Assembly: GCF_900102915.1 (NCBI RefSeq)
Contig: NZ_FNGG01000002.1
Location: 1 to 64,000 of the forward strand
DNA length: 64,000 nucleotides
Origin: Salinimicrobium catena
GTDB taxonomy: Bacteria > Bacteroidota > Bacteroidia > Flavobacteriales > Flavobacteriaceae
Direction: 5' to 3'
The notes under the pieces were generated by a model. The model searched no databases. It saw only the letters and a program-made list of their open reading frames with translations, and was not told where the DNA came from. Of this stretch, positions 1,614 to 59,102 are shown piece by piece. Both the position numbers and the translations under genes were made by a program. Numbering within the stretch: position 1 is the first letter of the stretch; each line of letters opens with the position of its first letter.

Positions 1614-2169
1614 AGTCGAAAATGTTTTGAATTACAATGACCTTCCTCAATTTTAAAAGGGAAAAAACATCAAAAGGTGACTGCTCAATTTTTTGTTGGT
1701 TTTTTGGTTAAGTTCATATTATCCGCAGGGAAGGATAATCTGAAGACATTCTTTGTTTTCTTACAAAATCCACTAGATATTTGGGGGGTAGTGGGGCAAT
1801 TCTGGCAAAGGTTTTTGAACCTTCTGCAAAGTAAAATTAGCGCTTAAATCTGTTAAAAAAAGAAAATTCAAATCTTTTAGATGTAGTGTGAGGTTTAACG
1901 GACAAAATACACATTAACAGTTCGTTAAGACTAGTATTTTGGCATAAAATTTTAGGTTTTTAACAATATTATAGACAGAAAATTTTGGGCTGTTTAGAAG
2001 GAATTCCTTACAGGATGTTGAGGGATCTTTAACTGATTCTTTACTGTTTTTTTGATGGGATACTGAGCCGAAATTGATTAACTGAAAAAATCAATTCTTA
2101 CAAATATTTTCAGCTCCTTATAGAGGTAATAAATTTCAGAAATTGTAAGAATTCCTGTAAATTGGCAAT
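1614..2169. other. Gene-free AT-rich intergenic region
   Basis: Divergent gap between the adhesin gene (minus) and pdxH (plus). I found no ORF of note, no convincing hairpin and no TAnnTTTG promoter element in either direction. Its length and AT content would suit regulation of the large adhesin gene, but nothing specific is visible. Confidence 0.5.
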
Positions 2170-8894: not shown

Positions 8895-8899
8895 TCGGT

Positions 8900-9214
8900 A
8901 AGCAGACCGCCTTATCGCTCTGAATTATTTTGGAGAGGAAAGTCCGGACACCACAGGGCAGCATAGTGGGTAACACCCATCACCTCCTTTTGGGAGGGAG
9001 GACAAGTGCAACAGAAAGAATGTACAGGTAATGCTGTAGTGAAATCAGGTAAACTCTATGCGGTGCAATGCCATGTATACCGGCTGTTAAGGATCGCCCG
9101 TCCGTTGCCGGAGGGTAGGCAGCTAAAGGTCTTTGGTAACAAAGGCTTCAGATAAATGATAAGGGCTCTGGTCTTTCGGGATCAGAGAACAGAATCCGGC
9201 TTACAGGTCTGCTT
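8900..9214 (+). ncRNA. rnpB: RNase P RNA component (bacterial class A)
   Basis: Catalytic RNA that trims tRNA 5' leaders. Helix P1 is a perfect 9-bp pair, AAGCAGACC (8900-8908) with GGTCTGCTT (9206-9214). The conserved P4 strands are GAGGAAAGTCCGGAC (8935-8949) and ACAGAATCCGGCTTA (9189-9203). The J-region sequences GTAAACTCTATGCGG and AGATAAATGATA are present. The length of 315 nt fits a class A RNA. A short T-run follows P1 at 9213-9217. The gene has its own promoter and stands between dnaX (minus) and the P-type ATPase gene (plus). Confidence 0.96.
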
Positions 9215-9347
9215 TTTATTTTTCTTCTTAAAATTCCGTATCTTAAATATCCCTATCTAAGGCCTTTACTTTAAAATAATGATGATCTTAAAAGGTGATT
9301 TTTAAGCCTTTATTTCCCGATATCCTCCTGGTTCTTATAAAATTGAT

Positions 9348-55904: not shown

Positions 55905-58148
<2,244 letters not shown>

Positions 58149-58237
58149 TTATAATAAGGTCGTGCAATTTACCATTTTTAAAGCTTTTTTCATAGGTGCA
58201 AGGCCGAAGAAGCACCTAAAAACTACTGTTTCTGGCA

Positions 58238-58279
58238 TAAAAAAAGCCATTTCACTATAACATTATAATGAAATGGCTT
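58238..58279 (-). terminator. Orphan intrinsic terminator, minus strand
   Basis: Perfect 11-bp stem AAGCCATTTCA (58244-58254) / TGAAATGGCTT (58269-58279). Read on the minus strand the stem is followed at once by T7. The nearest gene upstream on that strand, rplS, already has its own terminator, so this one should serve another transcript. Confidence 0.75.
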
Positions 58280-58431
58280 CCTAATGAAATAACAATGGTT
58301 GCTGAACTTTTTACATTCTGTTTGAGACTTTTCATCATCTCAAGGCAAGTTGTTATTTCATCTGAAACAATTTACATGTCCCAAAAGAGTGTGTGTAAAT
58401 TGCTTCTAAACGTTTTTACCAATTAAACTTA
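58238..58431 (-). ncRNA. Candidate structured non-coding RNA, possibly 6S-like
   Basis: A minus-strand transcript of about 194 nt is suggested by three things: a near-promoter TATCTTTTG (58437-58445, one extra base in TAnnTTTG), strong stems and a terminal T7 terminator. Stems are GAAGCAATTTACA/TGTAAATTGTTTC (58394-58406 with 58364-58376, one G-T type mismatch) and the 12-bp ATGAAATAACAA/TTGTTATTTCAT (58350-58361 with 58284-58295). The latter encloses a bubble and an inner TTGAGA/TCTCAA hairpin. A closing stem, open bubble and inner stem resemble 6S RNA, and a 6S-Flavo family is known. I cannot confirm the match. Confidence 0.42.
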
Positions 58432-58622
58432 TGGTTCAAAAGATAAAAACCTATGTAAAGATCGTTACTCTACATGAACTTTAAAAGAGAATTCCTTGCG
58501 ACATTCCTAATCTTTTAAAATTCACTTATAAATATACGAAGAAAGATTCGTTGACGCAAGTGCTTGGCGCTCAAGTAATTCCTAAATTTAAGCTAAAATT
58601 GTCCCGCAGAATGTTGAGCAAT

Positions 58623-58648
58623 AAAAAAGCCCCATAACTGGGGCTTTT
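58623..58648 (-). terminator. Intrinsic terminator of rplS
   Basis: Perfect 9-bp stem AAAAGCCCC (58625-58633) / GGGGCTTTT (58640-58648), loop ATAACT, followed by T6 on the minus strand. Confidence 0.9.
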
Positions 58649-58669: not shown

Positions 58670-59020
58670 TTATCTTCTTCTTTCTTTGATACGAGCTTTC
58701 TTACCGGTAAGTTCTCTAAAGTAGTAGATTCTTGCTCTACGAACTTTACCACGCTTGTTGATCTCGATCTTTTGAAGCGCCGGAAGGTTCAATGGGAAGA
58801 TACGCTCAACTCCTACAGTACCGCTCATCTTACGAATGGTAAAGGTTTGGGAAGCTCCGGTTCCTCTCTTCTGAATTACAACTCCGCGGAAGAACTGAGT
58901 ACGGGTCTTTGCGCCCTCAGTAATTTCGTAATAAACAGTGATGGTATCTCCGGCTGAAAATTCAGGGAAATCCTTTTTTGTTACAAATTCGTCCTGTACA
59001 AATTTAACTAACGATTCCAT
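58670..59020 (-). CDS. rplS: 50S ribosomal protein L19
   Basis: 116 residues. Sits at the 30S-50S interface. The family patterns FSAGDTITVYYEITEGAKTR, FRGVVIQKRGTGASQTFTIR and the C-terminal VRRARIYYFRELTGKKARIK are clear. In E. coli rplS follows trmD in the rpsP operon; here trmD is also upstream, but a promoter-like element (59095-59102) and a 69-nt leader precede rplS, and a terminator follows it. Confidence 0.97.
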   Translation of the reverse strand: MESLVKFVQDEFVTKKDFPEFSAGDTITVYYEITEGAKTRTQFFRGVVIQKRGTGASQTFTIRKMSGTVGVERIFPLNLPALQKIEINKRGKVRRARIYYFRELTGKKARIKERRR

Positions 59021-59102
59021 TTCTAATATGGTTTAAAAGTAAAGTCCAAAACAACATTCACGGTTTTCGCCAGAGGTTGGTTCGGAAACGAGTGCAAAAT
59101 TA
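59021..59102 (-). promoter_or_regulatory. Promoter -7 element and leader of rplS
   Basis: TAATTTTG on the minus strand (59095-59102) would start transcription near 59089, leaving a 69-nt leader, the longest with a clear -7 element apart from that of the coiled-coil gene at 59896. A CAAC/GTTG-bounded segment (within about 59048-59082) could form a weak hairpin. A leader for L19 autoregulation in Flavobacteria has been proposed; I cannot confirm its fold here. Confidence 0.35.

Follow-up and report, generated by a model that had tools for sequence, protein, structure and literature searches.

Few large structured bacterial RNAs are conserved throughout a family, and among those known several have proved to be RNA particles or global regulators. 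OLE, ROOL and GOLLD are large ornate RNAs of bacteria; OLE is about 600 nt long, and OLE and GOLLD dimerise through symmetric kissing loops (PMC12286853). In Flavobacterium psychrophilum, the structured and conserved sRNA Rfp18 alters the levels of protease mRNAs (PMC9723704). Two further kinds of element serve for comparison: the icd and icd-II riboswitch candidates of Proteobacteria are linked to icd and form three-stem junctions (PMC8632094), and the L17 downstream element (L17DE) provides a precedent for a downstream element of a ribosomal-protein gene (PMC7247131).

Here we describe a structured RNA locus between rplS and icd in Salinimicrobium catena. The window is the whole 64,000-nt stretch of DNA that was analysed (contig NZ_FNGG01000002.1, positions 1 to 64,000). 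A sequence-only reading had proposed that positions 58238-58431 hold an orphan transcription unit with strong RNA structure and its own terminator, possibly a 6S-like RNA. The first part of this proposal is supported by synteny throughout the family, by covariation, and by the conservation of both the promoter and the terminator.

The RNA gene and its signals

The features of the region are listed in Table 1. In the congener alignment, the rplS-icd gap was conserved almost without break up to about 58526. The unit had been thought to begin near 58431, behind a near-promoter; its predicted start lies approximately 95 nt further 5', at about 58524, and in individual folds the added segment formed two more hairpins and the 5' arm of a third. 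The near-promoter lost its support because the window species carries a 24-nt deletion there, in H3, relative to its congeners (the segment is kept in 10/10 congeneric homologues), and because the sequence lies inside a conserved hairpin.

Table 1. Predicted features of the rplS-icd region, in positions of the window
Feature	Positions	Strand	Remarks
RNA gene, structured noncoding	58239..58526	minus	predicted start ~58524, end 58239-58241, ~285 nt; from alignment of the window with 10 congeners, covariance model R1 and family search
Promoter, TTG-N20-TATATTTA, Bacteroidetes sigma-A type (-33/-7)	58529..58559	minus	predicted start 58524
H1, 5' hairpin with conserved GUC-GCAA-GGA tip	58474..58525	minus	folds in 11/11 genus sequences; compensatory changes in 5/7 modelled pairs
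H2, AUGUAGAG-UAACGAU-CUUUACAU hairpin	58453..58475	minus	counterpart of the long-form AAAG-UAACGUU-CUUU hairpin
H3, GUUUUUAUC/GGUAAAAAC stem	58412..58450	minus	counterpart of the long-form UUGUUUUUU/AAAAACAA stem that closes the large central domain
H4, 13-bp hairpin	58364..58406	minus	compensatory changes at every outer modelled pair
H5, 13-bp stem closing a three-way junction with two hairpins	58283..58362	minus	present in every form of the RNA
Intrinsic terminator of the RNA, GCCAUnUCA...UGAnAUGGC stem and T7	58239..58282	minus	sequence nearly invariant across the family
rplS terminator	58625..58648	minus	separates rplS from the RNA unit
icd promoter (probable, own), TATG-N19-TAAATTGC	58164..58194	minus	3' of the RNA terminator; conserved block GGTAAATTGCA in congeners, counterpart TTTTTGTATATTCGCA in long-form genomes
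rplS (bL19)	58670..59020	minus	upstream neighbour
icd (monomeric NADP isocitrate dehydrogenase)	55905..58130	minus	downstream neighbour

The flavobacterial sigma-A motif has been described as TAnnTTTG at -12 to -5 (PMC9723704), and the promoter of the RNA agrees with it in box type and in spacing to the start. A matching element was present at the same place in 9/9 congeners checked. Among the long forms described below, TAnnTT was found in 44/44, and the complete TTG-N17-21-TAnnTT arrangement in 37/44, compared with 7% in shuffled sequence.

The hairpins first seen within 58238-58431 are real: the 194-nt minus strand folded at -61.4 kcal/mol (z = -7.7), and 0/200 dinucleotide shuffles folded as well. 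Some details have changed. The terminator and its T7 were confirmed, but the stem, given as 11 bp, is longer, with up to 19 pairs when the inner part is counted; the 13-bp stem stands, but the 12-bp stem with a bubble and an inner hairpin is really a stem of 13 pairs closing a junction with two inner hairpins. The separate terminator that had been assigned to rplS was found as well. With regard to the flanking genes, the nearest named match of the window icd, at 80%, was the icd of Salegentibacter, and an L19-Flavobacteria ribosomal protein leader (RF03130) lies upstream of rplS (window 59052-59079, minus strand) and is conserved in most of the homologous loci.

Distribution across the Flavobacteriaceae

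Homologues of the RNA occupied the same place, in the order trmD-rplS-RNA-icd, across the Flavobacteriaceae. Blast searches identified it in 10/11 sampled congeners, the exception being a genome that is 74% complete. Plain DNA Blast from the window reached the genus only, and the wider family was seen only through a covariance model and then through profiles built from distant forms. When the full-length covariance model R1 was run against 300 family genomes, other genera were matched nearly always between rplS and icd and on the same strand, even at weak scores. Among 126 icd-upstream regions fetched from many genera (a few from the same genome), 100 matched the family sequence profiles at E <= 1e-3 on the icd strand, and 0 matched on the other strand only. 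Among the named carriers that the profiles or the covariance model picked up are Salegentibacter, Winogradskyella, Psychroserpens, Algibacter, Lacinutrix, Maribacter, Flagellimonas, Aequorivita, Tenacibaculum, Polaribacter, Aquimarina and Marinirhabdus.

At loci with adjacent rplS and icd, a profile or covariance-model match to the RNA was present in 92/96 gaps longer than 400 nt and in 0/7 gaps of 172-282 nt; the distribution is a clean pattern of presence and absence. Seven genera lack the RNA at this same locus, and it is therefore not essential to the family. One genome of genus g146, which is probably Flavobacterium, has an rplS-icd gap of 282 nt without the RNA, and the remaining g146 genomes gave no credible match in the long-form search. 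This species-rich genus thus seems to lack the RNA, which may be why work on Flavobacterium is silent on it. Outside the family, a long-form query against 246 genomes of the order returned no credible match, and the RNA was not found at the icd loci of Cyclobacterium, Belliella, Anditalea, Kangiella and Crocinitomicaceae. The 3' hairpin motif occurred once per genome, at the RNA locus, in the window genome and in the carrier congeners; a mobile or repeated element was rejected because each genome has a single copy of the RNA and because the terminator motif is found nowhere else in the window genome.

Length variation and common frame

The RNA occurs in a compact form of approximately 285-315 nt (the window genus, Salegentibacter and allies), a long form of approximately 560 nt in most genera, 44 of which were aligned, and an intermediate form in some genera. 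A profile built from long forms recovered members of the window genus at E <= 1e-4, over the 3' third, which indicates that the long and compact forms are homologous. Common to the forms are the promoter, H2, the closing stem, H5 with its three-way junction, and the terminator. The long and intermediate forms share the AAAG-UAACGUU-CUUU version of H2, and its palindromic AACGUU loop was found in 40/44 long and 8/8 intermediate forms, while most compact forms lack it. The forms differ mainly in the central domain, which is large and multi-branched in the long forms and reduced to simple hairpins in the compact ones. In addition, the CUCUUUUGGGA loop of the compact form has been lost even inside the genus, in genome G003.

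Selective constraint on the structure

Folding gave z = -9.3 for the 288-nt segment of the window and z values from -6.0 to -9.6 for the ten homologues from congeners. In the compact alignment, 96.3% of the cells were paired, changes on both sides were observed in 47/90 pairs compared with 12-18 in controls with partners slid, and covariation was 0.355 compared with 0.05-0.07; the fitting of this alignment to the model works in favour of the pairing, but the slid controls were run on the same alignment. In the long alignment (A4, 44 long forms from 44 genera), which was made without structure and to which two helices were added by hand after inspection, 94.4% of the cells were paired, compensatory changes were found in 61/96 pairs compared with 33-38 in the controls, and covariation was 0.372 compared with at most 0.081. 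Covariation in aligned homologues was one of the checks that the sequence-only reading had named, and it is clear. On the minus strand, cells with G-U far outnumbered those with A-C (137 vs 14 in the compact and 409 vs 56 in the long alignment), which fixes the strand of the RNA.

It had been noted that the segment holds no open reading frame. No conserved ORF was found among the long forms or among the congeners, so a protein-coding gene was ruled out. At the 3' end, the terminator stem GCCAUnUCA...UGAnAUGGC was retained in 42/44 long forms (A4 columns 670-716; window 58241-58282). That this hairpin keeps its sequence, and not just its pairing, suggests a sequence-specific role and would be odd for a mere terminator. 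Our results establish the RNA as a highly structured, strand-specific, single-copy, noncoding and vertically kept unit that has its own signals and is independent of both neighbouring genes.

Comparison with 6S RNA and other Rfam families

The proposal that the RNA is of the 6S type and imitates an open promoter drew on a stem with an internal loop, and the length of the compact form is also in its favour. Three observations make it extremely improbable. First, the true 6S-Flavo RNA (RF01685) lies elsewhere as a single copy (window contig 702289-702396, minus strand, E 1e-19), and one is present in every genome of the genus. Second, neither RF01685 nor RF00013 matched at the locus, no 6S model matched any homologue tested, and RF00013 (6S) had no match in the whole genome at E <= 10. 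Third, the consensus consists of separate hairpins and a 3' three-way junction, not of a single rod with a central bubble. Membership in the 6S family was therefore rejected.

No family of Rfam 15 (4227 families, including tmRNA, RNase P, SRP, OLE, ROOL and GOLLD) reached threshold at the locus. Likewise, none did so on the RNA part of 33 homologous loci (17 compact or other and 16 mostly long-form); the only Rfam matches at these loci were to neighbouring elements, namely the L19 leader and Flavo-1, or were weak and below the gathering score. A search of all Rfam families had been a second suggested check, and the lack of a match was to count against the unit; the outcome was indeed no match, but the covariation contradicts that refutation. 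tmRNA, SRP RNA and RNase P were also rejected, since each was located elsewhere in the genome: RNase P RNA class A (RF00010, E 4e-62) at window 8899-9219 on the plus strand, SRP RNA at 126585-126683 of the window contig, and tmRNA at 100507-100906 of contig C21.

Relationship to rplS and icd

Two rival readings, in which the RNA is an icd leader or an rplS tail, are unlikely but have to be taken seriously in view of the icd and icd-II candidates and the L17 downstream element. As a cis-regulatory leader of icd, a riboswitch or attenuator, the RNA would end transcription at 58282-58239 unless a metabolite binds. The RNA and icd are same-strand neighbours in most genomes, with a median distance of 182 nt from the terminator to the icd start, and the icd and icd-II candidates are a precedent (PMC8632094). 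However, several genomes separate the RNA from icd. G158 and G073 have the RNA after rplS, followed by a large glycosyltransferase gene in convergent orientation, and icd at a distance of more than 5 kb; G140 has other genes, including efflux-type ones, between the RNA and icd, which lie approximately 6 kb apart. Furthermore, a conserved promoter-like element lies between the RNA terminator and icd, at up to 560 nt the RNA would be a very long riboswitch, and no conserved antiterminator was found. A possible alternative pairing between H5 and the terminator, through a shared AUUUCAUUA, would suit a strand switch in the window genus, but the repeat does not occur in the long forms or elsewhere outside that genus. 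We consider a leader of icd improbable.

Lower still is the probability that the RNA belongs to rplS, as a downstream element that L19 binds or that is processed from the rplS transcript. Its position after rplS, the L17DE precedent (PMC7247131) and the L19-Flavobacteria leader of rplS (RF03130) speak for such an element. Against it, rplS ends in a terminator of its own, the RNA has a separate promoter, and no resemblance to the L19 leader motif was detected within the RNA. The two are also separated in three genomes: an insert of approximately 1.6 kb with an S8-type secreted protease gene lies between rplS and the RNA in G003 (locus L040), and no rplS occurs within 1.5 kb of the RNA in G290 and G299. 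Because of the genomes in which the RNA and its neighbours come apart, it is unlikely to be either the leader of icd or the tail of rplS.

Two side observations concern these loci. The insertions between the RNA and icd in G158 (locus L211) and G073 (locus L212) consist of the opposite-strand glycosyltransferase gene (~1250 codons) and a 444-codon neighbour, apparently at the same place in two genera. At locus L108, a Flavo-1 RNA (RF01705, above the gathering score; 1659-1725, minus strand) lies between trmD and the rplS leader as a second structured RNA nearby; a weaker Flavo-1 match was found at 556-627 of locus L107.

Function of the RNA

We propose, with a probability of about 0.62, that the locus encodes an independently transcribed, noncoding, trans-acting structural RNA of the ribonucleoprotein type. 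From the promoter, the terminator and the covariation, we infer that the RNA is transcribed; action in trans and a ribonucleoprotein or oligomeric state are likewise inferred. A housekeeping-type promoter would start transcription of the RNA and its own terminator would stop it. The product would then act in trans as a folded RNA, either as a scaffold for a ribonucleoprotein or as a self-assembling RNA, with a constant frame (the 5' hairpins, the closing stem, the 3' three-way junction and the near-invariant 3' hairpin) around a variable central domain. Several points count against such a structural RNA: its usual same-strand neighbour icd also fits a leader, seven genera do without the RNA at the same locus, and the compact and long forms do not share the central domain.

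A different possibility, to which we give a minor share, is a trans-acting sRNA that base-pairs with mRNAs, as in the case of Rfp18, its hairpins serving to stabilise and present a seed. The size of the compact form, the RNA's own promoter and terminator, its orphan position and the Rfp18 precedent (PMC9723704) are in line with this possibility. On the other hand, conservation extends over stems, junctions and internal loops and is not concentrated in one exposed seed, the exposed CUCUUUUGGGA loop is not kept within the genus (it is lost in G003), and most family members are multi-branched RNAs of approximately 560 nt, with an OLE-like size and complexity. These features argue for action through the fold, as expected of a structural RNA, rather than through one seed.

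The structural RNA may be more specific in kind: a large multi-branched RNA machine or particle (a ribonucleoprotein, a kissing-loop dimer or a ribozyme), present in most Flavobacteriaceae, comparable to OLE, ROOL and GOLLD and naturally minimised in the window genus. We put this forward tentatively, by analogy. The RNA does have a long, complex and covarying structure without a conserved ORF (44 genera, 61/96 pairs), and the analogy with OLE, ROOL and GOLLD is functional only. The difference in the central domain between the compact and long forms weakens the case for one shared elaborate machine. As a lead only, the near-invariant palindromic loop UAACGUU of the long form could be a dimerising kissing loop.

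The Flavobacteriaceae are a major family of marine polysaccharide degraders. The fixed genomic address of the RNA makes it easy to delete, and the existence of ~560-nt forms beside naturally minimised ~285-nt forms means that the essential core can be read from nature.

Comparison with known systems

No description of the RNA was found in the literature searched, which did not cover many subscription journals and supplementary tables. What is new is the RNA family, which has no relatives in Rfam 15 or the searched literature; we claim no new mechanism. The novelty is limited to the family, since the broad kind, the large structured bacterial RNA of unknown function, is already known.

Like the icd and icd-II motifs (PMC8632094), which form three-stem junctions, the RNA lies upstream of an isocitrate dehydrogenase gene; unlike them, it is much longer, has its own promoter and terminator, and is separable from icd in several genomes. 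With 6S-Flavo (RF01685) and 6S (RF00013) it shares the character of an independent structured RNA of the same bacteria with its own promoter and terminator, but it is a row of hairpins with a three-way junction, multi-branched and ~560 nt long in relatives, with no sequence or model match to either. Rfp18 and the other sRNAs of F. psychrophilum (PMC9723704) are orphan structured RNAs of the same bacterial family; however, the probable Flavobacterium genome has the 282-nt rplS-icd gap without the present RNA, and Rfp18 was compared by description only. Flavo-1 (RF01705) is also an sRNA family of these bacteria, with a member nearby at L108, but it has another place and another model, of 76 nt, which does not match the present RNA. 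From OLE, ROOL and GOLLD, the RNA differs in lineage and neighbours, in having no Rfam match, and in the window form of just ~285 nt. What it has in common with them is a large, elaborate, covarying structure encoded by an independent gene, a long form near the ~600 nt of OLE, and a conserved palindromic loop, AACGUU, that resembles their kissing loops.
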